From NCBI GenBank assembly GCA_037893245.1, contig JBAIAA010000410.1, forward strand, positions 1 through 64,000: 64,000 bases of DNA. The letters are read 5' to 3'. The notes under the pieces are model-generated. The model did no database searches. It saw only the letters and a list, made by a program, of their open reading frames with translations, and was not told where the DNA came from. Positions 27,023 to 54,132 of this stretch are shown piece after piece. This DNA comes from Crossaster papposus. Lineage: Eukaryota > Echinodermata > Asteroidea > Velatida > Solasteridae. Position numbers and translations under genes: made by a program. Each line of letters starts with the position of its first letter. Position 1 is the stretch's first letter.

Positions 27023-27181
27023 TCTTTGATTACTTGGAATTGAGTTTTAGCTAGTCAGGGACTTCCCTTGCGGGTTGATTGACGGGTTATTTTGTACTCG
27101 TCAAATTATGGTCAACAGCTTCTCACAGAACTACAATTTGAAGCAGAATTATTAATGTCGAATAAGGACGTTTTAACTTAC

Positions 27182-27618
27182 CCATGTATATAGACCGTCT
27201 TCTACCTTTTTAGGCTTTAGAACGCTTAAGTAATTCTCATAAAAGTCTGGGATCGTGATGGAGGTCAGTGGAAGCCCCTCCTGCTTAAAGTACTCGGTAA
27301 TCCTTGATTTGCTGTCGCTCCACGGGACAGGAGCCCCAGTGATGTTCTCGTAGTTCGACAAGGTGGTGAACACCAAGTGCGGGAGGCCGACCGCCATGCA
27401 GGCGTTAGCCACGTTCATGCCGTATTGGTACTCGTCCTTGACCGCCTCCTCCAGGACAAGCTCCACGGGAGGTAGGGTGACCAGGAAGCAGCAGTCCGCC
27501 CCTTGGAGAATCAGAATCAGGCTCTCTGTCTGGGCCAGCTCGGCCTGGACGAGTTGGCAGCCCGCTGCCTCCAGGTCCAGGGACTTATGGGAGGTGGGGT
27601 TGCGAGTGACGGCTCGCA
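27182..27618 (-). CDS. Isolated exon, NmrA-like (NMRAL1/HSCARG-type) protein
   Basis: One open stretch of about 145 codons resembles the middle of NmrA-like family proteins, atypical short-chain dehydrogenases that bind NADP(H) and act as redox sensors. Visible hallmarks: VRAVTRNP (end of the second beta strand), GADCCFLVT (the A-x-F-V-T strand), a NxVANACMAVGLPHLVFTTL-like helix-strand, SNYENITG, a FKQEGLPLTSITIP-like segment and FYENYL. It ends at a consensus donor (GG|GTAAGT) in phase 0. The 5' end must be an intron border because TAA directly precedes GTG in frame; the proposed acceptor (CCAATTAAG) has a poor pyrimidine tract. The N-terminal exon with the GxxGxxG dinucleotide motif and the C-terminal exons were not found on either side within the window. 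GC-rich codons contrast with the AT-rich surroundings. It is either part of a gene with very distant exons or a captured fragment. Confidence 0.7.
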
Positions 27619-30471: not shown

Positions 30472-30650
30472 TTAGTATTCAAAGTTGACTGCCATCGTTT
30501 GTGAATCCTGTTGTTCGCTGCCATCGTCGCTGCTCACCTCTATTTCAGGTCGACAACACCAGCCGCGGCACACCGCAGCGATGCACGACCCTAAGCGACA
30601 CAAGCATCCGTAACGCCATATAGCTTTTACGCTGGTCCATATCAGACTAG
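30472..30650 (-). CDS. Exon 14: end of last membrane segment and cytosolic tail
   Basis: 179 nt coding, acceptor TTTTTTTACAG, stop TAA at 30,474-30,472. Completes the last hydrophobic segment (ASLIW), then gives CLCRLGSCIAAVCRGWCC, six cysteines in 18 residues that could be palmitoylated near the membrane, followed by an acidic, Ser/Gln-rich tail ending NFEY. Confidence 0.8.
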
Positions 30651-33600
30651 CTGTAAAAAAAAGCAGAGAGAAAGAAATTATTTTCCTTTAAATAGTTTCT
30701 TGAAATCTTGCTCATCGCGTAAGGATCGAGTCATTTAACCATGTCATTATTCAGAATCACCGGCAATTGCAAGATGTAAACAGATCGATGGGATAAAACA
30801 GGTGGATGGGAATGGATTCTTACCAATGACAAACACGATGATACTGAGGTTCATCAGCACAAGAACAACAGAGAGGACCTCCTTTCTATATTGGCTGGAC
30901 TGAGCATCCTCGCTCGGCAGCAGAAGCAGCGATGCAGCCAACAGGTTCAGGAAGATGGTGCCAAGCGAGCACATCTGCAGACGATGCTCAGCGGCATCCT
31001 TCATAGGTTTGAAGTAAGCGTGCACTAGCAGAAAGCCCACCGATATTACTATGGTGACAAACATGGTAAAGTGATCGTCGGGCCCGTACAGCTGCACAAA
31101 CAGCGTCTGGACGATTTTACGTGCCAGCTCCAGAATCTCCCAGTACCAGAACTTTTGCTTGTAATTCTCGCACAGGAAACTCTCCCAAGTAAATGCAGCC
31201 TGGGTTGGCGGTTCACCGTGTAGGAGAAGCTCATCATCTGACTCATCGGGCACCAAACGACGTTCTCCAGTAACATTGAGCAAAGAATGATTCCCACCTT
31301 CCCCTCTACCACAGACAGTTCCGGTTTTCTTGTGTTTTCTGGCGTTCCACCACAAGAGAAGAAACAACAACAGAGGAAACCCAACCACATAGAAGAGGGA
31401 GACCTCAGCTGCATAGTTGTAATGAATATGCTGCTGCGTTTGGCAATCGATCGAGTAATCTGCTCGAAGTCTGGTGACATTGAAGGTGTTAATTTCGTCA
31501 ACGTAGAAGAGGTCACATCCAGTGGGCAATAATGTAAGGATAACACCAGACAGGCTGGGGTAGGAAATGAAAAGTAGTATCACCACAACCAAGTAACACC
31601 TCTGCTTGGCCTGCGACAGGAGAGCCATTTGTTCCGCAGGAGGTGTTTTCTTTGCTTTCAAGTAACACTTCTTGGAGCTGTAAAAACACCATGCCGCAAG
31701 CAAAACGAACACCACAAAAGTAATGCCGGCCAAGAACTCAATGTAAATATTGGGATAAGTAAAAGATGGGACATAGCATCTGGGACTGATCAACAATTGC
31801 ATGATATTCACCTGTAACAGTCTAAAGACGCCTGTTAGTATCTTCGGCCATGCAATTTCATAAAGCGCTGAGAATATCTCCCCAATGACCTGGTAGAAAC
31901 CCAGTAGGATCTTCCCTCGAGCAAGCAGCAGGCTGACGGCAGACCGACCGTTTCTTCGGTTTTTGCGCACCTGCCAAACTATGAAGACTACAATCAGAAC
32001 AACCACACATACAGCAATGACTTCAAGTAGAAACAACCACCATTTGGGACACTCAAAGCAGTGATCGAACCAACTGTAATACTTTGGGCTGCATTGGGAG
32101 CAAAGCCAACCCGTGTAGCCTTTCTCGCACGATGCGTTGATGCCACTCAGCACAACATTTTCACACAACTTATTGCGAGGACATTTATGCACTTTGGGTA
32201 ACACACCCCCAAACCTCTTGGTTGTGTTGTCATAGGTTTGATTTTTAGTGCGCACATTTTGAACAAATCGCTCGTAAGATAGGTAGTTGTCATCCAATAA
32301 ACCCCAATCCCAGGTCCACCAGAAGCCAGGACGGAGGTGTTGGTACTCCTCTGAGCAGTTGGTACCTTCAGTCGGACACAGATGGCATTCTCCAAACCGG
32401 TCAGTACGGTAGTATCCATCAAGACACGGACAGGCGCGGAAGCCAGCGTGAAGGCTTTTATTAGTACCTGTAGGACACACCTTGCAATCCCCAGGAGTGA
32501 TACCAGGGTGTGCCTCAGGCGTTACGTAGGTGCCATTGTTGCATCTCTGGCAGTTGAAACCTTGAGAGACGTCAGCCACCTGCCCCGTTTTGATTTGGTA
32601 AAATCCGCCTATATAGCAGAGAAAACAGAAATCCGATACGAAATTGGTTTAACAATACGACAAACACATACTAGATTTGAAATGTTATTTTGTTGACTTG
32701 TAGCCCATATAAAAGGGCAAACGGGCAGAAGATTTCAACTTCAAATATTATTTTCAATGATCTACAGGGTGTCTAATAAAATTATAACGCACATTTAGGT
32801 GATCGTAACTTCCTAAATAAGTGTCGGAATAGAAAAATTCTGTTCAGTAATTACGGAGAAATGAGCGATTATGTAACAGTAGTCGAAGAACACTTCCATC
32901 TAAGTTTGTTCATTACACAGATTTTCCCTTTTTAATTGCGATAACAGATTTAATTATTGCGCAAATTGGCGATAGCAAACTTCAATCTTTATCAAGTTTT
33001 AAATGTGAAAAATTATCTCGCTAACATTTATGTGCAGTATTATGTTGAACTATTACTTAGATTAAAAGAAAAAAGAGAACAAGAAAAAAAGTTATGAATG
33101 TAATCTTTGAAAGACGTATTGGTTAATTTCTTGTCTTTGATGTCTAAATCACTCAATATTAGCAAACTTGGATGTAATTAGTGTTCTTTGACTACTTTTA
33201 CGTAATCGCTCATTTCTCCGTGATTACTTAACCGAATCAAACGCGGTTTTCTTTACATTATAGCCAACTACATGTAATTTGACTTTATTTTGTAGCTTTT
33301 AATTGTTCAAATCCAACACTTATTTAGGAAGTTACGATCACCTAAAGGAGCGTTGTAATTTTGGTTGAGACACCCTGTATATATTTAAACCCAATTTGCT
33401 GTAATAACGTTGTTTCCATTTACTATACCGTGGCTAAAAAGAAACTGTGCGATCGCCTTGACACAATGTAATAATGGAAGCTTTCGATTTGTACTTGTTC
33501 CATCAGTTTTGTCGGGCGATTCACAATGCAGTGCGCCACCAAGCGTTTGACTCAAAAGAGCCACTTTTAAACTTTACGGTCGACTTCTTCCATATATCAT

Positions 33601-36600
33601 ACTGTAGTCAAATATCTATTCTCTTCATTGTTCACACGAGGTACAACACAAACATAAATGTATCCGGAAGCGTCGTTGATTAAAACATTGTTATTTGCAG
33701 AAAAAAATTGGAACTTTAATCGTGGGCGTCTAAAAAGACGTAAAAACTGATGAGTTCATGCAAAATGAATACCGTTTTTTAAACTGATGCCGACTTCTTC
33801 CCATGATGCACTGCGGCTATAGCAGGATTTGCGCCTCCAACGGCAGCTTCTAGGTATTGTGAATCACTCGAATTGGCAGCTTGTATTTACCTGGCGGGCA
33901 TGCAGTACAGTGGTCCAGAGTCCAAGATGTTCCGTACGTGCCATGTGGGCAGGGTTTACATTGCCAAACATATTCAGTGAACTCCATACACCTAAATCCC
34001 GAAAACAATAATCTCAGGGCCAGAGTTTTTGTAGCATTTATTGACTGGGCGAATCCGTCGCCAACTAATTCGCTGAAAAGGTAATAAGATAAAACAGCTT
34101 AATTTGGTGGGGAGGAGGATGTTGTACCATTCATCTTACAAATTGAATCGAGCGAGCGCATAGCACCAAGCCAATGACGGCGTACTGCCATGAGAGCCGC
34201 TGTTATCATGCTCGAGATGATCTACGCAAGTTGCGGGAATCGAAGACGGCGGGAAGCCTGGAGGTCCGTCACAATTTACGGGTGGTTTCGTTCATGACGC
34301 ACGCAGATTTAGGTGATATCAAGCTAGGTGACGGTGCATGCAAAGCGTTGCGGGTGATTTGTGAATAAGGACCCTAATCCCCGCTATAACACCAAAAGTA
34401 ATTACTTCTAACATCAGAATAATACTCACATTCTGAGGTCATTTCTAAGTGTGAGTGGTGCGAACTCCAAAATGTTCTCGGTTGATCTAAAAAAGAAAAA
34501 AAAAGGAATACGATCTGTGAACTTTACCAATATTCTGGTATCCTTGTGTTCAATGTATTGAAGGTCGAAAGTAAAATTGTCCGTCAACATTACGTAGACA
34601 AGAAAACATTTAATCGGAACGAATACGTGCATACATAATTACTGCAGTAATTCTGTATGCACTTATTCGTATACTGGTACCCGTCACCCCAAAACGTTCG
34701 TTAAGGCAATACATATACAAATTAGCATCAATGCTAAAAATAGTTTTATATCTTGTAATTTTAGATAGGGAGTGTATAGTTCTATTGAATTTTTACTGCT
34801 AAGACATTACAAAATCGCCTTTTTTAGCAAAAAAAAATTACTTACACATAACTGTGGTTAGCTAGATCTTGCCAGACGGCATCGGAAATTCTTCTCAAAG
34901 GATTGGCGTACATTGATCTGAAATACCAAAGGATTGCTTCAATGTAATGTATATAGTACCTGGGGCTCAATTATTTGTTCACGTCATCATCCGATCCATT
35001 ACCAGCGGTCATCCCCCAACCCGGTCATTATCACGCAGTAATAACCGGGTCCTCGCACTGTTATTACCTTTAATAAATATTTTTTAAACGAGAAATATTG
35101 TGAAAATGCTCCAAATTTCGGCGATATTTCTACCGTTTTGTGTTCATGTTTAGGGGCCACGTTTTAGCTTTTGCTTATGCATGGTACCCAGTCTCTTCAA
35201 TATGTGCTGTTATTATAACCCATACTTTGAGACCAGACTAGCTGACCACTGATGCCCACCGTGCATAGCAATGCGCTAGCGTTAGCAGACGACACGCGCA
35301 TTAAAAAATACAAAATTAAAATGCGTATAGATACAAACGTTCTACGCGTACATTTTATAGCGCGCAGTATCAAGATTTGACGCGTCCTTGTTACCGTAGA
35401 ACTGTTGCATTCGGCCAATCATGGGCTTACATGATGCTTGATTAATGCTGGTTCAGGGAACATTTATTCGCTTCTTCTTGAAACCCACTAGCAGGATGCC
35501 GCGCTTCGCGCCGCACCTGCTAGCTGGGTGAAATCGTAACTTATAGATACACCTTGTTGACGTCTTAAAAACATAATGGATTGTATGACAAACAAATCGC
35601 GAAACTTAGCGAGTAGAGTACCAGCTAGAAAGTATTTCGAGCGCACGAAATTATGTCGAGCTCACGAACAATTGTTTTTGGAGCGCACGAAGTCATTTCG
35701 TGGCTACGAAAACATTTCGAGCTTACGAAATAAGTTATTTTGAGTGCACGAAAAAAACTCAAATTATTTCGTAACGGTGATTTTTATTCGTCATATGTCC
35801 CTTTAGGGGCTCCGTAGAATACCATCGACTCTGAATAAAGACAATCTTTGTGAAAATACTTCCCGACTTCCGAACTAATAATACTCAATAGGCAGTCCAT
35901 CTTCGCTTGCATGCTGACTGCGTCTCGTGATTTTTTAACAGGAATCGTACGGGAAACAATACGAACCACTTCGGGATTTCTGAGTTTACATCATCGTAAA
36001 AATCCTCATTAAAAAACCCAACAGGCCGGCCATCTGACAGTGCGCCCTCAACTAACGTAATGCAGTCACGTTTCTAAATTGCATATTCATATCCACCATC
36101 GCCATACAATTTCGCGACATTTTTGCACGATCAAAGTTGAAATTGAGGCAATAGCGATATGTTTCGGAGTGTTTTGAGACAGATAATGTTGTAATATTTA
36201 AGTATCGACAATGTGAAGCAAAGAAATTTGCCCAAAAGGCAACACGAAAGGAATAAATCATTTTTTAACGTTCCCAAGCTGTGACTGAAACGTGGTCGAC
36301 GCGCACGAATTCGAACCCGAAAACGAAGCCGGCGCTCAACTGGTACTATGTTTACTTCGCAATAACCAAGGAAGTATAAATCGGGGCACCAGCTCAAATA
36401 ACACGGGATGGGCCGCCCAATCGCGAACAACAAACTCGGCACCAACTCGGCCACCGCGCGAGCAAGGCGGATACAATTAATTTGCGAAGGCAACCGAGTT
36501 ACGGTAGTACGATTTCGGGAAGGCTTCGGCCCGAACTCCGGGCAAGGACAATGCAAAAATAACGCAATAGTTCACGCAAAAAGGCCCACAGACATCAACA

Positions 36601-39600
36601 GGCAATCGAAAAGCGATTACGCGTTTATCGGTAACGTCCGTTTCTTTTAAATCTTACTTTTACGATTTTTAAAAAAATCTTATTCCCTGGGGGATTCGCC
36701 GTCGCGAACCCACGCGCCAAGATGGCGCGGCCCTGTGTTCCAAGATGGTGCGGCCCTGTGTTCCAAGATGGCGGCGCCCAGGGACAAGATGGCGCATTTT
36801 ACATCTTTTATAGTGGGTGCGTTCGTTTAGCTCACCCGGGGCGCCCCGGGTAAGCCCCGCGCCGTTCTTTTAGCTCTGACGTGTACTCGTGACTAGGCAC
36901 GGGTCAGCCACCAGCTCCCGTAGCAGGGTCTCTGGTGGAATAACGTCACACGCATGCGTAGTCGAGTCGACGACGTCTAGGGCGGCGTAAAGATGGCGGA
37001 AAGGTAAATATTTTGTTGCAAAATATTCCGATTTTTCATTTATTTTGTAGGTTTTTTGTTGTTGTAGAATTGTATTTGAAATGCATGCAACTAAAAAATA
37101 CAACCATGCAGAACATTTAGTGGAAAACACGAGTGCGTTCGATTAGCTTCCCCTCGTGCCATCCCCCGAGTGTTAACCCTAACTCCCCCGGGTAAGCTAA
37201 TCGAACGCACCCAGTATAGATGATATTACTACCTGATAATCCACTCCGCGTGATCGAGTTTCGACCAATCAGAAGCCAGCAACTCTCCTAGGTATTTATT
37301 AATACAAAATAATGCCCTCCACGTGATCGAGTATCGACCAATCAGAAGCTATCAACTCTCCTAGGTATTTATTAAATAATGTTTTATCGTATCCATGTAG
37401 ATTAGGCATTTCCAGTGTCAATCTTGATACTTTCAAATGAAGACTTTTAGGCCGAGTTCGGGCGGTCTGTTCTTGACACGCGAACTCTGTTCTCGCGCTC
37501 AAACGGCGGGAACGCGACCCGTGAACATTGCACTCGGAACAAGAACACACACCACCTATCCATCAGGGTTTTGCAAGAACAATTTACGCGTGTCAAGAAC
37601 AGACCGCCTGAACTCGGCCTTATAGGCTCATTTTTGTGTGTTTCGTGCGCCTCGGCCTCTTGTGCGCGCGCCACATCCGTGATGGGCGTTCGCGTACATA
37701 ATTATATACGCGGATCAATTTTCAGAACAGTTTTGAAAACGCATGTCATGTCTATGTTTTATTTAGATGTCTATGATACGGAGATTACGGACTTGTCACA
37801 TATACATCAGGGCCCAATTTCTTGGCTCTGCTAACCACAGAATTCCGCGCTTACGGTCACCATTTTCCGCTATCCGCGCTAGCAGAATTTTTTTGCGCTA
37901 ACCCTGTAAGCACATAATTCTTAGTTACGGGATGTACGCATGCTCAGAGACCGAAATTGCTCGCTAACGCGTTTACCGTAAGCACCGAATTTTCTGCTAT
38001 AGTAAGCAGGGATTCTTCGCTAACGGTAAGCAGAGCCAAGAAATTGGGCCCTGGTTGGGAGGATTGCGTTTATTTACCTTAGCTTTGGCACAGACCGAGC
38101 GGCAACCAATGCAGACTTGGGCCAAGTCTACCGCTGAGCCGTATTTCGATCGAGGAGCAAGCGAGCGTGTTTGGAACAGTTTGCAACACATTTTACAGAA
38201 CAAAAATACACTGAAGACCACAAAACAGGGAGTAAATTTGACCACCTATATGTTTCACTAGGTCTGTTCCAGCAATTTATCATGCAGTCAAACTTTAGAT
38301 ATAGAGAGAGAGTTAAATGAGCTCCAATGTTTTTGGGGTCCGTGCTATAGTGTATGATACTCACACATATTGGAGAGTGTTGTTCTCGGTCGCAAATGGC
38401 CGCTCCCCTATAAACGAAAGTTCGGTCTGGAATATGTACCTAAGTATTCAAATAATCAAGACAATTAAAACGAAAAGAAACTGGCCTGTAAACAATGTAG
38501 TCTTTTGCAAAAGCATCGGTGGGAAATAAAAACTATGAAGTGATGAGACTTTGTATTTGTTTACATTGCGCTAGAAAGAACGAACCTTGATGTTTAGTCA
38601 GCAAAATATGTATACTCACAGATGCGTCAGTTGGGTCTCGTAAAACATCCAGTCCACTAGTTTAGTGATTGGGTTGTCAAATATTATCCTAAAATGAACA
38701 AGATGGAATTTAAATATGTAATATGTATATAACTGACATATACAGATCATTGGATTGGTATAACTCCCATCACGTGACATTCATTATTACTCCCATTCAC
38801 GCTGCGTCTCATCAAGTCCCCATTCGCCCATAGGGGAATGGTATTTACTATTCAACAGTTGTGATCATCCACGTTTCCACGGCTGTTGAACAGTCGGCCC
38901 TCACTCTGAAACCCCGGGGAAGGAGGTTGTGGCATGACCCGACGTCAACAGATGATACAACGCTCGCAAATCTGTATGTCAGTTATATAAAACAAATATT
39001 GAGTGGCTTTAAATTGTGAAATGAGCCATGCACTCAATAGTTGTATACTATTATCATAAGGTGAGAACTATAATGTTGCTTTATTTGTGTCTGATTTGTT
39101 TTGGTTCCTTTTCTGGCATTTAAAAAATATTTTCGGGTTGAGTTTGGGGATCTTAATATGTTTGTTTGTTTGTTTGTTTGTTTTTGCACATTCTTTTTTT
39201 TTTGCCTGACCAAATTTGTCAGTGTGATGACCGGCCGGTTCGCTTTTAATATACGACATGCAGTCCCCAAGGCAACAAGCCTACAGTGACGTGACTACCA
39301 CAACTTACAGTTTTGTTAGCGAGCTAAGCCCCGCAAACAAATTATTATCCAGGACGCTGATTCTGTTCCGCTGTAAGTAGAGATAAAAGAGTCCAGTCTG
39401 CGACCGGAAAAGTCCAGTTGGAATATACGTCAGTCGATTGAACGACAAATCCCTAAAAGTAAACATAAATAGAATTTGGAAGTATTTCATAACTGATTTT
39501 TACTCTAAATCCTGAAGAATATTCTATAAATTATCGATTAAAGTTAGGGTGTCCGTGCTTTATCAACATTCCGATTTTCTTTTCCGAATTTTGAAGGGAT

Positions 39601-42600: not shown

Positions 42601-45600
42601 TTTATTTTATATTTAAGTTTATATTTTAAACTCTTCTTTCGTCAATTTATTTGAAATGATGGTATGCAAGTGAAGAAGGTGTGAACAATGGACACCCTCC
42701 AAATATGGAAAAAATAATGGTTTCCGTGTAAAAAGAGACATCATCACCGAAATACTTTCATCTCTTTAGGGAATGTACATCAATCGCTTTTGCTGTAATT
42801 TTCAGAAACTAGTCAAAAGTACCCGTGGGTGTAATATATGACCGGAAGAAGGGAAGTTGGGGATGGGGTGACGTACCCGTACCCGTAAGTTTGGGCGAGA
42901 TCGGACCAAGGACTTGGGAGGAGTAGCGAAAAACGAACATTTGACCTTTGACCCCAGTGACCTTGACATATGACCGGAAGAAGGGAAGTTGGGGATGGGG
43001 TGACGTACCCGTACCCGTAAGTTTGGGCGAGATCGGACCAAGGACTTGGGAGGAGTAGCGAAAAACGAACATTTGACCTTTGACCCCAGTGACCTTGACA
43101 TATGACCGGAAGAAGGGAAGTTGGGGATGGGGTGACGTACCCGTACCCGTAAGTTTGGGCGAGATCGGACCAAGGACTTGGGAGGAGTAGCGAAAAACGA
43201 ACATTTGACCTTTGACCCCAGTGACCTTGACCTTTCCAAAAATGAACCCCTCAAGGGCAATTCTGGGGTGAACTTACATCCACCCACCAAGTTTGGGCGA
43301 GATCGGACCAAGGACTTGGGAGGAGTAGCGAAACAAACAGACAGACAGACAGACAAACGTTGCTCGAATTATAGTATGATGATGAATGAATTGAGGGCCG
43401 GGGGGGGGGGGGGGGTTCAAGGTAAGAGAATCAGTTGTACTCCTTCACATAATGTGGAAACAAATAAAAAGAAATTGTAGAATAGCTAAATATGCAAAAT
43501 TAGGTTCAATTTCTGAAAAAAAGTCAGTGGTTTTTAAACCTGGTCGGCTGACAGAATGCTCCATTGAACACCTTGGGAGGCTAGTTTTAGTACACCACTC
43601 AAAGTATTTAATAGTTGTATACTGTACATGGCAAAAATCCCAAGCAAGTATAGAAATGTGCACGTTTTACCATAGGCCCCCACATTGAGGGAATCGCCCA
43701 TTTACTATTACGATTCCGAGTTCTTTTCGCAACATGTCGACGTAATTTACCATTCAAAATCACAGTCGAGCTATTATTATGCTTACAAAAGAGTCAGCCG
43801 ACGGAGTCTCCCAAAGGTATGTGGCCGTAACACCTTCAAGATACCATTTTTCATCCGTCTGTTAAACGAACAATCAAAAAGTAATAACTGTTATTGGTGC
43901 AGACTGGTATAAGTACCCCGACTTAAAAAACTAACAGAACTTACCCACACCTCTCCAACTCCAAGCTTATATTTATCGTCTTTCATGTTCTAATGAACTA
44001 GAGCAACTAACTCTTCTTAAGTTAAGGACTCAAGGCAATGTACAACATGTTTTTAAATCTGACGAGATTGTTATACTTACAAGGTTGAGAGTTGTAATCC
44101 TTCTGTGTTTTCTGGCCCTAGTTCTTCAAACCTACCATCACGAAAGTGCCTGAAAAATTAAAATGGGTAAGACAGTGTGTATTGACATGCCCGTGAGAAA
44201 TACTGTATAGAGCGTGTAAGTTGACTTCGAAAACGTACGCGACTTTACGAGAAACCAAACTTTCGGGAACCAGCTTGAATAGTAGTATAGTTTTCTTGAA
44301 ATAATTTGTTTGACGCTGTTCTTTTTACTGAAAGGTAGATACAAACTTTCATATAAAAAAAATATTTTAATATACAAAATGTGAACTATATATCAACTAG
44401 GTAAAAAGAAAACGAAAATGTATAGTTAGGTAATACGTACGTCATACTTATCCGAACTTAATAAATAGGCCTAAAGTCTGAAATTTGTCAGCCTTATTAT
44501 GAACCTCTTGCATTTTGATAAGAAACAGTAATAATCATGCCGTCAAATCTGTTCATTTACAAAATCGATAAAACTTGTTCTTGTATCTCAACAAATACAC
44601 AAAAACAGGAAAAAACACAACAATAACACGAAACTATTGTCCCAAACGGGTGTCTACAGCTACAGCTATTGTGGATGTCTACGGCGGCCATTTTGTAGCG
44701 CTGTCCAAAATACCGGCTACAATGTCACACACACAAAATCTAGCCGTAACAAAAATATTTGTCTGGAATGATAATGCAAAACAAAATGGCCGCCCGTGCC
44801 AAAACTGTCCAGTGGGAAATATTTTTTGTTTGCTGGGAATGCGCAGTAGATGTCGAACACTTTGGGGCACGCAATACGTGATCAATATAGTGTCTAGTGC
44901 TAGTGTGACATAATGTCCGAGTGCAGTTAGAGCTAATTTGCGATAATTTGGTAATGACGGTGCAACCACGTCAATGCCATCAGGCATTTCGACCGGCTGT
45001 AATGCGTAACATCGAGCAGACGGCAATTCTTGTAAACATAAATTCTAGGATCACTTGGAACGCGATAACTAGCTGATGCGACATCGACGAAGCTGTAGAC
45101 GTAGACAGTAGCCTAGGCACCCGTTTTGGGCACGGCCTAAATGTCGGCTTACATGCTGTTTATGTTGTTTAGTCCCGCAAACCCTCCAGGTTGTATGTCC
45201 GATATTCTGTTCTTGTCTAAATACCTGTCGATGCATAGGCACAAGATTAACAAACGGACAAACTATTATGAGAATCGGGCACTTTTTACAATCTGGAAAT
45301 GTGCCGTGGCTATCAAACACTCAATTAATGTCATTACAAAGGGTAAACAAAGATTTACACAAAAGCAATGGCCTATTTAAAGCAATTAAAAAACAAATCA
45401 AATCCCAATTTCAATCCCTTGAAGTTACAAAAGAACTGGTGACCGTCGTGGGAATGCAATACTCACAGTTTTAATAACTTAGTACATCTTTTGAACGTAT
45501 CCTTCTCGATGATTGGCAGGCTGTTGTTTGCAAAATCACTGTGGATAAAGTTTAAAGTTGTATTTCAAAAAAACAAATTTGCGTGGGGGAATTTACTGTT

Positions 45601-48600: not shown

Positions 48601-51600
48601 TTGCAATATTAATATTTGGATTTAATTGGAGAATTGCTATTAATATTGTACATAAACAAATCAGGTTCGCTTTATCCTCTTAAACTTGTGAAAAGAATTG
48701 TGAAATAACCTTGTTAAAAGAATTGTAAAGAATTGAATGCGACTTATTTGAACCTGGTAAGACTTTGTCAATAAATAGATTGAATAGTATCTAGACTATT
48801 ATAGCCGAATTTGATTTGACTGACACAGTTCTCACACCCGGTACTATTGGCCTGAACCAGCCTCGGATCAAGTTTTGTTAAAAATAATCCCGCGCGTCGG
48901 TTCGGTGATGTTAAAATAATCCCGGCGCGAACTGGCTAATATAATGCACAGGCGTGCGCGCGCATGCGTGCCTATTACTAGTATCAGTAAACAATCTAGG
49001 CATACCCCCTTCTATTGTGACCTAGTGGGGAACTTACGCTATTTCTAGGTTCGCACAGTTCCTCGTTATTGGCTTGATATCTTGAAGTCGATTCCCGTGC
49101 GCAATACTGAAAAACGACGAATTGATTAATGTTAATGCCTTGTACTTAAACGAGTATATAGGCCTATGTATTTTTCGAAGGGGGAGGGGGGGGGGGGGGG
49201 GGGGGGACGGTGCCTACGTTACCATGGCTACGATCTCGCTGCGCCATGTTTTCCCATCATACCTTGCGCGATTAGTAATCGCACACGCCAATATCCCAAG
49301 AAGTCGAGGCTGCTGGGCCCAATCTCTTAGCTCTACTAACCGTTAGCGATAAATCCCTGCTTACAAATTCCGTGCTTACGGTAAGCGTATTTCACGCGTT
49401 AGCAAGAAATGTTTGCTTCTGCGCAGAATTCTGTGCTTACAGGGTTAGCACCTAATTTTTCTGCTAACCCGAAAAATTGTGATCGTAAGTAGGGAATTAT
49501 GTGGTTAGCAGAGCCAAGAAATGTTGGCCTTATTTGTAAACGCAGCCTCGACTCCGTCCATGGGCGTGTGTGCGTTCCTTCATTAACGTTAAGATCGCGC
49601 AAGGCATGATGGGAAAAAATGACGCAGAAAGATCGTAGGCATGGTAACGAGGTTGCTGTAGACGTTACTTGAGAGAGACATATTTTTCTTTGAACAAACG
49701 TTACAGACAGTGATCGTTATAATAATTGCTCAGCCGTAATTCAACAAGCTGCGACTGGAAAACGACTAGCGGAACTCAGTCCGCAATTTTGTGAAATGTT
49801 CGTGGTTCTACAAATTGACGGGCCGTTAGACTACGCAATTTTGAAAGAGTATAGTTATATGTGAATCTTTATATACTTTTTCAAAAACTTCCCAACAATT
49901 TGTCCATTTCATTTTTATATACGAAAACGCCCAGTCAACTGCACGTGTACCATTGCGGTTTGTGTAACTGCAAACCACGCATCATGTTTAACTTACACGA
50001 CCATGACGGATTCCGGCAATTCAAACGGCGTTTCGATCAAGTTGTTAGTTACATTTCTGAAGGTGAAAAAGACGATGGATCAATATCATTAACTTTGGTT
50101 TTTACACTAGAAAATATGTCACACAGCGCAACAAAAACTGGGCGCAACTATGGAAACATCTAAATCAAAACTATAGGCCTATAGGCCTAGAGAAAGGGAA
50201 ACTTAAAGAAAATATAAACAAATCCGATGTTATAAAATACAATCGGGATTCAAATTGAAACATTGGGCTCATTTGCAATAATGGGATAAGTATAGATGGA
50301 TATAGGCCTACACAGTCGCATCCGACAACAGCCCCTCACTGTAAAAAAGCAAACTACGGTACAATTTACGGGGATTACCTGGCAACCATGGATGCCAACG
50401 AATTCCCGTAGAGTTTACGGTTTACCGTAAAATAGCGGTAAAAGGATTTTTCATTGCCGCCAATTTACGGCGACTGTAAATGTTACGGGAATTGGTTGGC
50501 ACCCATGGCTGCCAGGTAAGTTCCCGTTGTACCGTATTTTTGTTTACAGTGCTGAATACACTCGAGGCACCCTCTAAGAAAAACAAGGAAAAAACTAACT
50601 ATCGGCCTACATGACCACAGAACAACTCACATTTTGATAAGAGATCTGAATTTCAGCAAACCACCGTAAGGTATTTCCTTTATGAAATTCTCTCCCAGTT
50701 CACTGTTTAAAGTTTAAAATAGAGAAAACAAATTGTCAAAGAACGTGAAAAAGTTATTATCACACCCAAAACTTAAAGGGGATTTGCCAGGCAGACCTAT
50801 TTTCGGAAAAGAGAGTCGGTTTTGATTTAGACTATTCGAACAAGGCTGTGATCAAACGCAGATATAGACGGCTGTTGCTAAATGTTGGTGACATATACCA
50901 TCATTTTTAAGAAGGGAATAATGGTTGAACAGTTTCAAATGTGTTAATTCCCGATCGGAAGGCGAGTGCATTAACAACGTTCAGGCCCATGGGCCGGTTT
51001 TAAACATAATACTTTAATAGGTTCCTACTTGTTTAATACCGATCAACCTATTTGTATTCCCTTTCATGAATATCTTTTGGTCAAAACAAGTAGAAAGGCA
51101 ACATTGTCCAACGATTGTGTTTAACAAAATACCTCGTGTTTTGAGGAACACATCTCTAGTTATTGTTATCGTACCCCACGCATGTGTTTTTTTATGGAGA
51201 TCGACGCGCGCGTTTCACCCGCAGTGCTCGGTGATGTGTGTTCAATGTGTGTGGTCATTGAACTCCATTATAATAATGGAGATCAATGTGCGTGTTGCAG
51301 ACATTGATCTCCATTATATAGACTTCATTGGAGTACAAAAAAGTGACACCGACAAAGCGTTTAAAACTTCTCAGTCTGTCCGAGTCATGAAGAATATATT
51401 TCACCCAGTCCTAAAGGCTCGATATTTCCCATGTTATAAATTAACCCTCTTATATACCGTGCAGTTACCATAGAGCTGTCAGACCTTTTAAAACCTTTCA
51501 AGTTTCCTGGACTAAAGGGTTTTGAAAGGTGAGAAAGCTGTCTGACAAAAGAAACCTATGAAAGATTTTGAAAGGTAAAACAACTCTCTGAACAAACTGG

Positions 51601-54132
51601 TGTGAGGTTTTGGAAAGTCTGGCCGTTTTCTGATAGACTTCCCATACCTTTATCATAGGGGCATACCATACCAAATAAAAGTTGAAATGTTTTGAAATGT
51701 TTAGCTGTTTTCTGTGAGAGATATTTTATATAATGTGCTGGGGAGTAATTCTACCTTTCAAAACATTTCAAAAGGTTTTGAAAGGTCAAACCATGTATGC
51801 ATAGCAACTGTAGTGATATTTGGTTGAGCAATAGCTCCACCTTTCATTTTCTTTCGCAAGGTTTTGGAAGGTCTGGCTGTTTTCTGATAGACTTCCCATA
51901 CCTTTATCATAGGGTATACCATAGCCCAGTTTTTCTACCTTTCAATTCCTTTCAAAAGGTATTGAAAGGTGTGGTAGTGCAGTAGCAACAAATTCTGGAG
52001 CGTTTTGAAAGGTTCATACTTTTTTATATCCATTTTGCCCAGTAAGCAGATTTTGAAAGGTTTTGAAAGGTGAAACCATAGGAGGGTTGCGAATACATTG
52101 TACATTATAATAGCATAAACAGCAGTGAAGTTTCAGTGGGTACTATTTTTAATTTATTTTTAACATTAACAAACATGTGCATCCCTTAGAAAACAAAACA
52201 TGAATAGGTATAGGCCTATGCACTGTAAAAAAAAAGTACTGCAAGACCAAATAAAAAAATAGTTGGGGTTCATCCATTTTGGGGGTGAATAAGTGAGGCG
52301 GGCGGGCGTTTTTTTATATTTTTTTTTAAATTATTATTTGTGGTTTTTATCGTCGTGAAAAAGTGGGGGAGTTTTTAGAAAACCAAATTATTTGGCCTAA
52401 AATATGACTTTATTGGCAGCGCGGGCGCCATAAATTTACTGTAAAAAATACAGTATTTTTTCTAAGTACTGTAATTAAAAAAGTTACATTAGGCCAAATA
52501 AAAAAAAAAACATGTTTAGCGTCATGCCTTTTTTTTTTCTTTTTCAAAATGGCCGCTGACACATTTTAATTCGAGTCGTGTAGTGAACATGTCACACCCT
52601 ATCTTGCAATTTAAAATTAAAACATGGTTCACCCACGATTAAAAATCAAAATTCATGTGGGTTGATCATGTATGCACCGTACACGACTACACGTCACACC
52701 CTAGCCCTCCTATTAGAAACAAAATATTTTCAGAGCATGTACACACATGATTCTAAAGTCTAAAATACGATCTTCAAATTAAAAAAAACAACTTTTGTTT
52801 AATTTTTTTAATTTTTTTAATTTTTTTTACCAAAATGTACAAATTTATCATTTTTTTCAAAAAGAAAAGAAAAGAAAAAAGGAGGCGGCCCCCCAAAAGG
52901 AAGCGGGCGGTGACGCTAAACATGTTTTTTTTTTTTTTGGCCTTACCGCGCCTATGCTGAGAACCACAGTATATGAGTGTACATATATATTTATTTATTT
53001 AGAGAAATTAATGGAGTTGGAACCAAACTTACTTTATACACATTACTTATACCCAGCACGATATGTGGCAGAGGGGTACCCCCCTCTTATCCCTATACCC
53101 TACACACACTCAATATTGTTACCTAACACATCCCCCTTGAAACCTAAAAAGAATTCCTGAGATTCCGGGAACGCAATGGTCAACACAAAAGAGGGGGGGG
53201 GGGGGGGGGGGGGGCTTCTCTGCCACATTCGAGCTTCATATGATATTGGGTCGTATGAATAAAAATTAGCATTTGCTTTTACTTCAAATTTTCAAGCTTT
53301 TACTACATGTAGCATCTGTATGAATAAAAATGAAGTATTTGCTAAAGACTAAAAGTACTTACTTTTTACTTTCCAACATTTGCTAGAATATTAGTATTTG
53401 CTCCATTTGGTATGAATAAAAATGAGTAAATGCTTCAGATTTGCAGTATTTACTCGAAATTTTTCAAGGTTGGTTCGGAGCTACCTTGAAAAAAGAGAAG
53501 CAAATACTAATATGACAAATATTGAAAATTGGTAGTAAAAGCAAATGCTAGTTTTTATTCATACGGCCCTATGTTCTAGAACCATTTTTTCTTTCCGAAA
53601 GGGGTTAAAGGAAGAGGGTCGAATATTTTTTGTCTCAATTTATTTCCTAAAATTTTAAACAAAAACATACAGGAGCGGCATGGTCCCCGTTCCCCCCAAA
53701 AAAAACCAAAAAAACAAACAAAAAAACAAAAAGAAACTCCACAAGAACACCCCAAACAATCCGCTAATGCAAAAAAATTACTATCGTACGTATTATCTGA
53801 GCTAATTGTCAAAAAAGAATATTGATTTCCATTTTTCAAAACAATTAAGTTTTCCCATTTTCCAGTCACAGAAAATACCATCTCAGGTCCACCTTTCATT
53901 ATTGATGCGGTGTATATACATTTTGTACTTACAGCGCCTTGGTCCCGTTAGGAATACCTCTGGGTAGTTCCGTAAGACCTCTGCCCGTGCAGATGACTAT
54001 GGGCCCCTTGCATTCGCACACATCGCAGGCTTCCCTCGTTGGATTCATTGCGACGGCCGTGGTCAGCATCGCAATCATCTGAAACATCATCATGATGGGA
54101 CGACTGGTTCTTCGGGTATTAGCAAACAACAT
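30472..54132 (-). CDS. LRR / cysteine-rich / multi-pass membrane receptor-like protein, 14 coding exons
   Basis: Joining 14 exons with GT-AG borders and matching phases gives 1,018 residues without a stop. Order: signal peptide (about 1-29); LRRNT cap with C36, C39, C41, C48; ten leucine-rich repeats (67-311), mostly one per exon of 69-93 nt with phase-2 borders, as in LGR/glycoprotein-hormone and relaxin receptors; a short linker; GCC2/GCC3 (ephrin-receptor-like) cysteine repeats (332-450); a conserved-looking cysteine block (507-553, including GYTGWLCSQC); then membrane segments near 555-578, 655-674, 703-726, 764-785, 880-896, 912-929 and 941-964, plus two hydrophobic stretches at 597-640; tail with six cysteines (975-992) and acidic residues. 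Several N-glycosylation sequons lie in the ectodomain. The membrane part resembles the TRP-like multi-pass modules joined to ephrin-receptor-like repeats in invertebrates and protists, and lacks DRY/NPxxY of class A GPCRs. A cell-surface receptor or channel is inferred; ligand unknown. No classical LRRCT was seen. Confidence 0.85.
30824..32608 (-). CDS. Exon 13: cysteine-rich modules and most membrane segments
   Basis: 1,785 nt, acceptor CTGCTATATAG, donor ATTG|GTAAGA; phase 1 at both borders. Encodes residues 365-959: GGFYQ continuation of the cysteine module, CKVCPTGTNKS, CPCLDGYYR, ECHLCPTEG, a FWWTWDW aromatic stretch, the pre-membrane block ending CFECPKW, and all but the last few residues of the membrane bundle. 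The motif NYKQKFWYWEILELARKIV, before a membrane pair, is the most family-like part. Reading through the donor instead would give a 25-residue alternative end. Confidence 0.9.
32765..33377. mobile_element. 613-bp Tc1/mariner-type MITE
   Basis: Ends CAGGGTGTCT... and ...AGACACCCTG, flanked on both sides by TA, the Tc1/mariner target duplication. The inverted repeats are long (about 125 bp with mismatches), including TTTAGGTGATCGTAACTTCC on the left and its complement on the right, and an inner GGAGAAATGAGCGATTA match. Lies in the intron between exons 12 and 13. No transposase. Confidence 0.82.
33474..33683 (+). other. Unrecognised 69-codon open frame in an intron
   Basis: An open frame (start MEAFDLYLFHQF) on the strand opposite the receptor gene, in the exon 12-13 intron. 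I recognise no family and no splice context; probably chance. Confidence 0.15.
33891..33991 (-). CDS. Exon 12: first GCC2/GCC3-like cysteine module
   Basis: 101 nt, acceptor CGGGATTTAG, donor CAG|GTAAAT. Encodes C-x8-C-x2-CPHGTYGT and ends CTACPPG, the ephrin-receptor-like C-x2-C-x-x-G-x-Y-x-C pattern. Shifts the phase from 2 to 1. Confidence 0.82.
34430..34486 (-). CDS. Exon 11: short post-LRR linker
   Basis: 57 nt, acceptor TTCTTTTTTAG, donor AAT|GTGAGT. Encodes 19 residues (STENILEFAPLTLRNDLR) that continue the leucine periodicity but lack a full LRR, in the place of an LRRCT. Phase 2 at both borders. The weakest-supported coding exon apart from exon 2. Confidence 0.68.
34846..34917 (-). 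CDS. Exon 10: LRR 10
   Basis: 72 nt, acceptor GGTATTTCAG, donor TGT|GTAAGT. Encodes SMYANPLRRISDAVWQDL with an NHS sequon near its end. The upstream intron (34,918-38,619) is the one richest in MITEs. Phase 2 at both borders. Confidence 0.83.
35620..35785. repeat. Short imperfect ATTTCGWGCKYACGAA repeats
   Basis: Five or six imperfect units of ATTTCGAGC(G/T)(C/T)ACGAAA spaced by about 25-33 bp, each nearly palindromic (TTTCG...CGAAA). Lies in the exon 9-10 intron. Confidence 0.65.
36292..36650 (+). other. GC-balanced stretch with open frames, no family
   Basis: Two overlapping plus-strand open frames (62 and 80 codons) in a segment with CGA/CGCG-rich composition unlike the neighbouring AT-rich intron. 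No domain recognised. It precedes the GATGGCGCGG repeats and may be an old element or promoter-like sequence. Confidence 0.2.
36717..36796. repeat. 23-bp tandem repeat with AAGATGGCG motif
   Basis: CCAAGATGGCGCGGCCCTGTGTT occurs at 36,717, 36,740 and (partly) 36,763, followed by GACAAGATGGCGC at 36,784. Each unit holds CAAGATGG(C/T)G, close to the YY1 consensus AAGATGGCGGC. It sits in an intron next to a MITE, so a regulatory role is only a possibility. Confidence 0.7.
36814..37213. mobile_element. 400-bp MITE, TGGGTGCGTTCG ends
   Basis: TGGGTGCGTTCGTTTAGCT on the left and AGCTAATCGAACGCACCCA on the right form inverted termini, with CCCGGG-rich subterminal sequence on both sides. TATAG lies near both outer borders but not at symmetrical positions, so the target duplication is uncertain. 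Similar to hAT-type MITEs by look only. Confidence 0.68.
37241..37374. repeat. 73-bp tandem duplication with CCAAT motif
   Basis: Two copies of a 73-bp unit containing CGTGATCGAGT, CGACCAATCAGAAGC and AACTCTCCTAGGTATTTATT, offset by 73 bp. CCAATCAG is a good NF-Y-type box, present in each copy; intronic. Confidence 0.75.
37450..37619. mobile_element. 170-bp PIF/Harbinger-type MITE (TTA duplication)
   Basis: GGCCGAGTTCGGGCGGTCTG at the left and CAGACCGCCTGAACTCGGCC at the right (complement order) extend to about 35 bp of inverted repeat including TTCTTGACACGCG. TTA is duplicated exactly at both sides (37,447-37,449 and 37,620-37,622). A diverged relative lies at about 40,588-40,666. Confidence 0.8.
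37808..38053. mobile_element. 246-bp MITE, CAGGGCCCAATTTC ends
   Basis: Inverted termini CAGGGCCCAATTTCTTGGCT and AGCCAAGAAATTGGGCCCTG, with several internal CTTACGGT / GCTAAC words in both orientations. Related sequences lie at 49,314-49,528 (nested copy) and 57,166-57,255 (single end). No target duplication recognised. Confidence 0.8.
38620..38688 (-). CDS. Exon 9: LRR 9
   Basis: 69 nt, acceptor TTCATTTTAG, donor TCT|GTGAGT. Encodes IFDNPITKLVDWMF and ends TQLTHL. Phase 2 at both borders. Confidence 0.83.
38724..38992. mobile_element. Inverted-repeat element, TATATAACTGACATA ends
   Basis: TATATAACTGACATATACAG at the left and CTGTATGTCAGTTATATA at the right bracket about 265 bp. The same ATCTGTATGTCAGTTATA motif starts the direct repeats flanking the 61-63 kb minisatellite. 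An inner hairpin, TTCAACAGTTGTG / GGCTGTTGAACAG, is visible. Confidence 0.55.
39159..39184. repeat. (TTTG)n microsatellite
   Basis: Six units of TTTG followed by TTTTTGC, intronic. Confidence 0.9.
39309..39452 (-). CDS. Exon 8: LRRs 7 and 8
   Basis: 144 nt, exactly twice 72, acceptor TTACTTTTAG, donor ACT|GTAAGT. Encodes two consecutive repeats: DLSFNRLTYIPTGLFRS and YLQRNRISVLDNNLFAGL. A lost intron between two ancestral 72-nt exons is the simplest reading. Phase 2 at both borders. Confidence 0.87.
39976..40247. mobile_element. 272-bp MITE, TCCAAATAGGCACTT ends
   Basis: TCCAAATAGGCACTTATGGA at the left and the near-complement TCCCCAAGTGCCTATTTGGA at the right, with a second inner copy of GACACTTAGGGAGACA / TGTCTCCCTAAGTGCC. 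In the exon 7-8 intron. Confidence 0.7.
40588..40666. mobile_element. Diverged short MITE related to 37,450
   Basis: ATGGTCGAGTTCCCGCCGCT and GTGTCAAGAACAGATCGCCC share words with the 170-bp element (GAGTTC, GCGCGAGAACG, GTGTCAAGAACAGA), bounded by TTATGG and CCATAA. About 80 bp, internally deleted. Confidence 0.5.
40765..40839 (-). CDS. Exon 7: LRR 6
   Basis: 75 nt, acceptor TTTTTTGCAG, donor TCT|GTAAGT. Encodes SLFNNKITSSGLPENTFHN, a 25-residue LRR. An NTT glycosylation sequon follows. Phase 2 at both borders. Confidence 0.83.
41633..41704 (-). CDS. Exon 6: LRR 5
   Basis: 72 nt, acceptor GTTATTACAG, donor TCT|GTAAGT. Encodes HFDNNKLRRVSPGAFRGV, the canonical N-x-L-x-x-V-x-x-x-x-F pattern. 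Phase 2 at both borders. Confidence 0.85.
41801..41826. repeat. (TTTA)n microsatellite
   Basis: Five to six TTTA units, intronic. Confidence 0.85.
41895..42282 (-). mobile_element. Dispersed 'GGATACACC' element, copy 2
   Basis: In reverse orientation: begins at 42,282 as AAGGTAGGATACACCATTGG and TAATTGCTTGAATCATCATG, runs through TATAGTAAATACCGTTTAAC, TACAATCATGGATGCCGAGA and CGCGATCGCCGTCTGGCG, and ends in TATCTGCAAAGGGTGTTG near 41,895. Shares this order with copies at 46,503, 54,652 and 63,844. Confidence 0.7.
42415..42507 (-). CDS. Exon 5: LRR 4 with insertion
   Basis: 93 nt, acceptor TATCAAGCAG, donor TCT|GTAAGT. Encodes YLNGNNLEEIPPDLL then an eight-to-nine-residue expansion rich in D/E/K before the closing LIL, so this repeat is 31 residues long. 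Phase 2 at both borders. Confidence 0.8.
42832..43360 (+). repeat. 132-bp tandem repeats in a retroelement-like 3' end
   Basis: Three near-identical 132-bp units (GACCGGAAGAAGGGAAGTTG ... CAAGGACTTGGGAGGAGTAG ... TGACCCCAGTGACCTTGACA) starting near 42,840, 42,972 and 43,104, then a fourth diverged unit with CCTCAAGGGCAATTCTGGGG, ending in CAAACAGACAGACAGACAGA and GAATTATAGTATGATGATGA. The closing region is typical of an RTE/SINE-like 3' end. Because 132 is a multiple of three, an apparent minus-strand repeat protein appears; it has no family and ends within the repeat. Confidence 0.8.
43401..43415. repeat. Poly-G run
   Basis: About 15 consecutive G after GAGGGCC, next to the retroelement tail. 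One of several G or C homopolymers of 15-25 bases in the window. Confidence 0.9.
44081..44149 (-). CDS. Exon 4: LRR 3
   Basis: 69 nt, acceptor AATTTTTCAG, donor CTT|GTAAGT. Encodes a divergent repeat, HFRDGRFEELGPENTEGL, keeping the spacing but with DGR for the usual N-x-L position. Phase 2 at both borders. Confidence 0.78.
44935..45130. repeat. Fragment related to the 23.5-25 kb inverted-arm element
   Basis: ATCAGGCATTTCGACCGGCTGT, AATGCGTAACATCGAGCAGACG-like words and CACCCGTTTTGGGCACGGCC match the outer flanks of the element at 23,310-23,480 and 25,070-25,095. A fragment only. Confidence 0.5.
45467..45538 (-). CDS. Exon 3: LRR 2
   Basis: 72 nt, acceptor TTATCCACAG, donor ACT|GTGAGT. Encodes FANNSLPIIEKDTF and ends TKLLKL, a textbook 24-residue LRR. 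Phase 2 at both borders. Confidence 0.82.
45784..46079. mobile_element. 296-bp PIF/Harbinger-type MITE (TAA duplication)
   Basis: GACCTAGGCTATACGCCGTG at the left and CACGGCGTATAGCCTAGGTC at the right begin a perfect inverted repeat of about 39 bp (including CTACTGCCGTGCCGAA). TAA is duplicated exactly on both sides (45,781-45,783 and 46,080-46,082). The interior is full of GCCGTGC / GCACGGC words. Confidence 0.85.
46503..46831 (+). mobile_element. Dispersed 'GGATACACC' element, copy 3
   Basis: Starts AAAGGTAGGATTACACTATTGG-like and TAATTGCTGG, passes TATAGTAAATATCGTTTACC, GGCCTGTCCGACG and CGCGATCGCCATCTGGCG, ends ATATCTGCAAATTGTGTATC and CTATACCT. The ends are imperfect inverted repeats (AGGTA-GGAT-ACAC / GTGTATCCTATACCT). 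329 bp, the most complete copy. Confidence 0.75.
47084..47312. mobile_element. Degenerate MITE-like sequence
   Basis: GGGACCTATTCCATGGATTT near 47,084 is roughly inverted with CATCTCTATGCAATTGGCCC near 47,290-47,310; inner TTTTGCTAAGAACAAAAATG pairs partly with CATGCTAAGCAATTTG. It resembles the CAGGGCCCAATTTC family but is too diverged to be sure. Confidence 0.35.
47644..48020. mobile_element. Possible MITE, GGGCTCTAGATTT ends
   Basis: GGGCTCTAGATTTTGG and ATAAATCTAGAGCCC are inverted 13-bp termini 377 bp apart. No target duplication or longer inverted homology was seen; the interior is unrecognised. Confidence 0.4.
48275..48492. repeat. 25-bp minisatellite (ATGTGCCTTGGTGGTACGTGGTTTA)
   Basis: About 8.6 near-perfect copies of a 25-bp unit (ATGTGCCTTGGTGGTACGTG then GTTTA). 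The last unit changes to GGTGGCACAG. In the exon 1-2... region of the receptor gene (intron between exons 2 and 3). Confidence 0.95.
49038..49106 (-). CDS. Exon 2: LRR 1
   Basis: 69 nt, acceptor TTTTTCAG and donor AGC|GTAAGT. Encodes a 23-residue repeat with HGNRLQDI, fitting L-x-x-N-x-L-x-x-I. Phase 2 at both borders. It lies just left of a poly-G tract and a nested MITE. Confidence 0.72.
49177..49207. repeat. Poly-G run
   Basis: GGGGGA followed by about 24 G, immediately left of the inverted-arm element at 49,208. Confidence 0.9.
49208..49660. mobile_element. Inverted-arm element with nested MITE
   Basis: The left arm (about 49,208-49,312: CGTTACCATGGCTACGATCT, TTTTCCCATCATACCTTGCG, AGTCGAGGCTG) and right arm (about 49,545-49,660) are inverted. 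Between them, 49,314-49,528 is a copy of the CAGGGCCCAATTTC-family MITE (GGGCCCAATCTCTTAGCTCT ... AGCAGAGCCAAGAAATGTTG). The nested order shows the CAGGGCCC element inserted later. The left arm touches a poly-G run, as in the 20.2-kb element. Confidence 0.7.
50337..50551. mobile_element. 215-bp MITE, CACTGTAAA ends
   Basis: CACTGTAAAAAAGCAAACTA on the left pairs with TGTTTACAGTG on the right; the inner parts (TTACCTGGCAACCATGGATG / CCATGGCTGCCAGGTAA) are inverted, giving about 75 bp arms. The ends resemble hAT-type MITEs; an 8-bp duplication is not evident. Confidence 0.72.
51480..52085. repeat. TTTTGAAAGGT-rich repeat region
   Basis: At least a dozen TTTGAAAGGT / ACCTTTCAAAA words in both orientations. 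A segment with GTTTTGGAAAGTCTGGCCGT, GATAGACTTCCCATACCTTT and ATCATAGGGGCATACCATA (51,607-51,675) recurs at 51,861-51,925, about 255 bp further on, indicating an imperfect tandem duplication of a palindromic element. No gene. Confidence 0.6.
52492..52942. mobile_element. 451-bp PIF/Harbinger-type MITE (TTA duplication)
   Basis: GGCCAAATAAAAAAAAAAAC then ATGTTTAGCGTCA on the left; TGACGCTAAACATG then a T run and GGCC on the right. TTA is duplicated exactly (52,489-52,491 and 52,943-52,945). Confidence 0.8.
53193..53213. repeat. Poly-G run
   Basis: About 22 consecutive G after AAGAG. Confidence 0.9.
53248..53569. mobile_element. 322-bp MITE, GGGYCGTATGAATAAAAA ends
   Basis: GGGTCGTATGAATAAAAATT on the left and TTTTTATTCATACGGCCC on the right, continuing as AGCATTTGCTTTTACT / AGTAAAAGCAAATGCT (about 36 bp). 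The interior has two more GTATGAATAAAAATGA copies near 53,316 and 53,410. Confidence 0.75.
53933..54132 (-). CDS. Exon 1: signal peptide and LRRNT
   Basis: Starts at the ATG beginning MLFANT; an upstream in-frame ATG at 54,222 would add 30 polar residues before the hydrophobic segment, and MMMFQMIAML inside is another candidate. The hydrophobic core MMMFQMIAMLTTAVA is followed by C-x2-C-x-C-x6-C, the LRRNT cysteine pattern, and the first LRR-like turn GLTELPRGIP. Donor GCT|GTAAGT after two bases of a codon (phase 2). Confidence 0.8.

Follow-up and report, generated by a model that had tools for sequence, protein, structure and literature searches.

We identified in the sea star Crossaster papposus a gene encoding a leucine-rich repeat (LRR) ectodomain and cysteine-rich modules followed by a membrane domain of family PF06011 (fungal-type TRP/flavin-carrier/Pkd2), which belongs to a small, partly tandem family of LRR/PF06011 genes in this echinoderm. 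The gene lies in a 64,000-nucleotide stretch of DNA (assembly GCA_037893245.1, contig JBAIAA010000410.1, positions 1 to 64,000), hereafter called the window. The initial annotation had seen an LGR-type sensor on a membrane module of unknown kind. We now read the product as an LRR receptor built on a fungal-type TRP module and as a member of a small, diversified echinoderm family. If this is true, PF06011, a family studied mainly in fungi in the literature consulted, also occurs in an animal as part of a receptor whose sensor is easily recognized, and such a receptor would give a handle on the gating of PF06011 proteins. If the diversity among the copies is selected, candidate echinoderm recognition receptors are named, together with residues to test.

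Structure of the LRR/PF06011 Gene

The gene is carried by the minus strand, from 54132 to 30472, exactly the span initially proposed. A genomic exon scan yields 14 exons that join in frame, as had been annotated; the encoded protein has 1,052 residues rather than the 1,018 first given. All 13 introns start with GT and end with AG. As the scan imposed GT/AG as a condition when picking exons, the exon borders are evidence only through the other copies of the gene. Exons 2–12 are entered in phase 2, the last two exons in phase 1. Candidates of the scan left out of the model include 49106–49038, 44149–44081, and 46967–46881. The observation of the gene is confirmed, in the form of a predicted exon model.

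Exon 1 (53933–54132), whose start codon was chosen in the analysis, encodes a signal-peptide-like segment and LRRNT-type cysteines. The LRRs are encoded by exons 2 (50631–50702), 3 (45467–45538), 4 (45153–45224), 5 (43787–43858), 7 (41633–41704), and 11 (34846–34917), all of 72 nt, and by exons 6 (42415–42507; 93 nt), 8 (39309–39452; 144 nt), 9 (38620–38688; 69 nt), and 10 (38365–38439; 75 nt). The size of 69–93 nt claimed for the phase-2 LRR exons thus holds for nine of the ten, the exception being exon 8, which carries two repeats. Exon 12 (33891–34072) encodes the end of the LRRs, a variable segment, and the first GCC2/GCC3-type (PF07699) module. Exon 13 (30824–32608) encodes further cysteine-rich segments, a DUF7630-like stretch, and the PF06011 (TRP-like) membrane domain. 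Exon 14 (30472–30650) adds the end of the last helix, a short cysteine-rich tail, and the stop. Read from its N-terminus, the predicted protein opens with a signal-like segment and LRRNT-type cysteines. About 11 LRRs by exon count come next, then a variable linker, a GCC2/GCC3-type module, more cysteine-rich segments, the DUF7630-like stretch, the PF06011 membrane part, and a short tail.

Satellite DNA with 11- and 12-bp units fills almost the first 20 kb of the contig (window 7–19721). On the minus strand, a frame at 27173–27619 encodes an NmrA-like protein (E 1e-18), and frames at 58768–60007 match DDE_Tnp_1_7 and its zinc finger, a transposase that we take to be piggyBac-like. The stretch C410:59431–60411 (C410 being the contig of the window) is 99.1% alike to C724:39618–40600. 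Elsewhere in the assembly, a stop-free frame of 682 aa belonging to the COX1 family was found at C8:5208663–5210009; C8, a contig of at least 5.2 Mb, is perhaps a bacterial contig within the assembly. Another contig, C1841, carries a COX1 with 13 in-frame TGA codons. Translation with table 9 gives Asn at AAA and Ile at ATA, where table 5 would give Lys and Met. Table 9 is used by echinoderms and flatworms alike; the mitochondrial code is thus compatible with an echinoderm, which the COX1 sequence also resembles.

A Small, Partly Tandem Gene Family

We searched the 1.02-Gb genome (1,841 contigs) and found eight full copies of exon 13, all open: the window copy and one other on C410 (C410b), four on C724 (C724a–d), and one each on C624 and C589. 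Another exon 13 is present as pieces on C624. Partial relics lie near full copies at C624:593684–594366 and, with internal stops, at C724:8029–8190 and C410:90658–90813. A C-terminal query with E values up to 10 recovered only the eight known copies (nine candidates scored).

The 30 kb before each of the seven other exon-13 copies were searched with exons 1–12 as queries. This gave 74 matches in gene order, 72 of them without a splice or frame flag: 12 each for C410b, C724a, and C724c, 11 for C589, 10 each for C724d and C624, and 7 for C724b. Exon 2 was matched in four of the seven copies, exons 3, 4, and 5 in six each, and exons 6–12 in all seven. The two flagged matches are exons 4 and 6 of C589, the ends of which were extrapolated from partial matches. 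The first codon of C724c exon 1 is not ATG, and a Met follows 13 residues further on. Exon-1 matches were also found farther out, at C724:45969, C724:131263, C624:625215, C624:638127, and C589:954960 (among the 110 of 276 candidates scored); their positions suggest that they belong to the four copies lacking exon 1 within 30 kb. Exon 14 is present in all seven other copies, the tail of C624 being nine residues shorter through a stop. In exon 13, dN/dS is 0.21–0.49 in 27 of the 28 pairs, those that differ; these pairs share lineages and are not independent. As exon order and exon 14 recur across copies and exon 13 is constrained, the join between the LRR exons and exon 13 is inherited and not an artefact. 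The LRRs, the GCC2/GCC3-type cysteine-rich modules, and the non-rhodopsin multi-pass part of the initial annotation do lie in one gene.

C410, when reversed, parallels C724. C410b resembles C724a (e.g., 97.9% over 5,667 bases and 98.7% over 2,995 in the stretches fetched) and, less clearly, the window copy resembles C724b (96.2% over 2,506 bases). The exon-13 stretch of the window copy is nearest to C724d (96.9% over 3,555 bases). From these likenesses C410 and C724 may be two haplotypes, in which case the eight copies would represent perhaps six loci.

Nine pattern matches in prokaryotic contigs and 88 in viral contigs were obtained in searches for relatives, and none was confirmed in either; these negatives say little because the two collections contain no animals. 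We found no description of the domain set LRR, GCC2/GCC3, and PF06011 in the open-licence literature, subscription journals and preprints being outside the scope of this search, which makes it weak evidence of novelty.

LRR Sensor and Cysteine-Rich Modules

LRR_8 matches the whole protein with an E value of 5.2e-35, and a PDB search with the LRR part gave 320 distinct sequences at E ≤ 0.001. By E value, the best matches are IGFALS (1.3e-38) and LRRC15 (4.3e-37), then LGR4 (2e-30); LGR5 was also matched. The LGR4 match forms a single long stretch (38–307), whereas those with IGFALS and LRRC15 are split into four and three, respectively. By these matches, the LGR-type sensor of the initial annotation is one candidate origin of the LRR part among others. 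LRRNT scores 18.3 bits, under its cut-off of 25.8.

For the GCC2/GCC3-type modules of the initial annotation, the profile scores diverge. PF07699 (Ephrin_rec_like) reaches 25.6 bits for a cut-off of 23.1 in the 82-aa stop-to-stop frame that surrounds exon 12, and 18.5 bits, under the cut-off, in the whole protein. DUF7630 is under its cut-off in the whole protein; a search for it gave no match in the C. papposus genome and none in the control genomes. Against the PDB, exon 13 matched only the mastigoneme-like protein Mst1 of Chlamydomonas (E 0.011). A profile of seven exon-13 copies did not recover Mst1 from the PDB and gave only TNFRSF21 (E 5.7).

A PF06011 Membrane Domain

In the Pfam scan of the whole protein, PF06011 scores 34.1 bits for a curated cut-off of 28.5 (E 1.8e-8, residues 669–1006). 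The match covers profile positions 228–408 of 426, spread over 338 residues. Exon 14 contributes to this score: on exon 13 alone, PF06011 stands at its cut-off, with 28.6 bits for the longer frame and 28.3 for the trimmed one. PF06011 was found in all seven exon-13 copies scanned with E values up to 1 (best 7e-7), and the reversed protein sequence gave no match. In the C. papposus genome it exceeds its cut-off at four places, all belonging to this gene family (21 candidates scored). None of 14 control genomes gave a PF06011 score above this cut-off, a negative that says little because the controls named are bacteria and archaea.

The same scan, with E values up to 10, returned 13 families, none of them a 7tm family, HMMER filters dropping most matches above E ~0.1. 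Ion_trans (PF00520), PKD_channel, REJ, GPS, PLAT, and an ML/TRP_N domain ahead of the membrane part were likewise absent from it, and an NCBIfam scan gave three families, all far below cut-off. The initial annotation had called the membrane part non-rhodopsin, had named PF06011 among the profiles to search, and had held that a profile match into an LGR 7TM family would speak against its reading. PF06011 passes its cut-off and no 7tm family appears in the scan; the non-rhodopsin description was right, and "receptor or channel family" was a fair guess.

PF06011 proteins have about nine membrane helices. After the signal-like start, hydropathy reveals ten segments above 1.2, in keeping with the multi-pass character first annotated; nine helices, spaced otherwise than these segments, were drawn. 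This drawing uses eight hydropathy regions, omits 655–673 and 1003–1021, and adds the unlisted 888–908. It places 30 K+R in the inside loops and 7 in the outside loops 2, 4, 6, and 8, which gives a consistent picture rather than a test because helix borders and sides were set by the analyst. AlphaFold models made without an alignment have pLDDT values of 46.1 for exon 13 of the window copy (594 aa) and 49.9 for the membrane part (412 aa). Foldseek comparison of the 412-aa model with the PDB returned 87 hits at E ≤ 10, of which none reached E ≤ 0.001. At such pLDDT values the models are unusable, and we drew no conclusion on the fold. Relative to the six other copies aligned, exon 13 of the window copy (around 31820–31995) is missing three residues following helix 2 and a single residue within helix 1.

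We considered a canonical six-helix TRP channel and rejected it, as Ion_trans is missing from the Pfam scan. In the passages cited, fungal members of PF06011 include flavin carriers and proteins acting in calcium homeostasis, and Pkd2 of Schizosaccharomyces pombe is reported to be permeable to Ca2+ (PMC10732042, PMC8618638). The name TRP therefore needs caution. In the relevant portions of two other papers, PF06011 serves as a search key for crustacean TRPs (PMC6150509, PMC13372173).

Two rival explanations concern the architecture itself. The exons, predicted from genomic sequence, might have been taken from two adjacent genes joined by mistake. We consider this exceedingly improbable and rejected a gene-model artefact: exons 6–12 stand in order before exon 13 in all seven other copies, and the phases agree at every exon border. 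Alternatively, the protein might be a GPCR, either one resembling class-C receptors or an LGR whose 7TM part has diverged. Small phase-2 LRR exons are the LGR exon design, although they occur also outside LGRs, in other LRR genes. This design, the presence of LGR4 and LGR5 among the PDB matches with LGR4 aligned in one long stretch, and a match of the class-C cysteine domain NCD3G on exon 12 (E 0.00034, 20.8 bits, under its cut-off of 38.9) all speak for a GPCR. Against it stand the lack of any 7tm family in the Pfam scan, the PF06011 score above cut-off, and more than seven hydrophobic segments. On these grounds we rejected an LGR or other GPCR, which we regard as very unlikely.

Differences among Copies Cluster in Exon 12 and on the Putative Concave LRR Face

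Sites were compared among six copies, with four to six copies per exon; C589 and C724d, the twin of C724c, were left out. In the concave-site test, pairs with unequal exon-12 length were also dropped, and the concave-strand sites of exons 2–11 were assigned by the analyst from the exon frame. Among the sites of exons 2–11, 22 of 55 concave sites are variable versus 26 of 206 others (odds ratio 4.6, p 1.7e-5). Exon 12 has 23 variable columns out of 60, versus 98 of 598 for exon 13 (p 1.5e-4); 15 of these 23 lie in the 23 residues that precede the cysteine module, an interval chosen by eye. This clustering at the putative concave LRR face and in exon 12 is new here.

Three pairs that share no copy give a dN/dS of 1.07 for exon 12 and 0.43 for exon 13 (p 0.007 for N:S). 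In the same pairs, dN/dS is 0.69 at concave sites (p 0.048 versus exon 13) and 0.57 at the other LRR sites (p 0.61), and dS is 0.125 in exon 12, 0.133 at concave sites, and 0.065 in exon 13. With all pairs pooled, the concave sites have a dN/dS of 0.77, not above 1, and the others 0.61. Exon by exon over all pairs, dN/dS is above 1 in exons 5, 6, 7, 8, and 12 and below 1 in exons 1, 3, 4, 9, and 11, ratios that are noisy because the exons are small; exon 2 shows no change among copies and exon 10 no synonymous change. Between the exons 12 of the window copy and of C724b, its nearest copy by exon-13 codons, we counted 12.2 nonsynonymous and 0.8 synonymous differences.

The introns that flank exon 12 were compared with the exon. 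Upstream, 5 of 15 pairs are unalignable, all involving C410b, and nine of the ten others show greater likeness in the intron than in the exon. Downstream, 8 of 15 pairs are unalignable; among the remaining seven, likeness is greater in the intron for three pairs and greater in the exon for four. Two pairs, selected after inspection of the intron table, gave p values of 0.014 (window copy/C724b, upstream only) and 0.008 (C724a/C724b, both sides). Mosaic likeness is also apparent. In the window copy, the flank upstream of exon 12 is close to that of C724b (98.7%), whereas the one downstream is close to that of C724c (97.9%). Between C410b and C724a, exons 6–8 are identical; likeness is 99.1% over exons 9–11, falls to 84.2% over exon 12, and is 97.0% over exon 13. 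Exchange between copies is therefore part of the story.

From these sequence comparisons, selection for diversity among the copies is likely, though not proven. The differences could also be due to gene conversion, haplotype mixing, and relaxed constraint, with no selection for diversity, in an ordinary adhesion receptor. We judge this account a real possibility, if the less probable one. The mosaic nature of the copies fits it, as do the raised dS of exon 12 and of the concave sites relative to exon 13, the mixed exon-wise dN/dS, above 1 in five exons and below 1 in five, and the downstream intron that is often less alike than exon 12. It accounts less readily for an upstream intron almost always more alike than the exon, for the two pairs of low p value (even though chosen after seeing the table), for the higher N:S of exon 12 than of exon 13, and for the clustering at concave sites. 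A different alternative concerns the membrane part. Instead of a channel, this PF06011 domain might be a transporter or scaffold that handles lipids or resembles the flavin carriers, the LRR part serving to anchor or adhere. The flavin carriers among fungal members, as described in the passages cited (PMC10732042), and the lack of a canonical pore family in the Pfam scan favor this proposal. Sensing fits better with the large ectodomain and with differences clustered on the likely binding side, and we hold a transporter or scaffold to be rather unlikely.

A Putative Single-Chain Recognition Receptor

A recognition receptor would be expected to show the features seen here: neighboring copies, differences concentrated on the likely binding side and within the linker, and constraint on the membrane exon. 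With confidence close to evenly balanced, we propose a single-chain receptor whose TRP-like domain, which perhaps handles calcium, is controlled by the LRR sensor. At the cell surface, the concave LRR face and the linker would bind an extracellular partner as ligand. The disulphide-rich cysteine modules would relay this event to the first helix. In response, the TRP-like domain would move or gate calcium, possibly as a channel, with the short tail inside the cell. A more specific role, which we put forward as speculative and on balance doubtful, would be a system for self/non-self, gamete, or immune recognition in echinoderms, every receptor being a channel in itself: a diversified, mosaic set of LRR ectodomains would act directly on the fungal-type TRP domain fused to them, and 3' halves (variable linker and channel) would be exchanged among copies and haplotypes.

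Comparison with Known Receptors and Membrane Proteins

The protein shares with LGR4–6 the small phase-2 LRR exons and a sequence match of the LRRs to LGR4 and LGR5. It differs from them in giving no match to a 7tm family in the Pfam scan and in the cysteine modules before its membrane part, which are of another kind. The likeness to Chlamydomonas Mst1 is weak and limited to 61 residues of the cysteine-rich part. With the fungal PF06011 proteins (TrpR/TrpA, S. pombe Pkd2, and the Flc/flavin carriers), it has in common the membrane domain, by a profile match above cut-off. These proteins carry ML/TRP_N according to the passages cited (PMC8618638, PMC10732042), whereas here LRRs and cysteine modules precede the membrane part. 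Polycystin-1 likewise has an LRR-bearing ectodomain on a multi-pass membrane part, and the cited portion of one study reports activation of the PC-1/PC-2 channel complex by the N-terminus of PC-1, the part found necessary being the C-type lectin domain and not the LRRs (PMC7728438). In contrast to Polycystin-1, no REJ, GPS, PLAT, or PKD_channel was found here in the Pfam scan. The membrane families differ, and by analogy Polycystin-1 may serve as a working model of how an ectodomain could be coupled to a channel.
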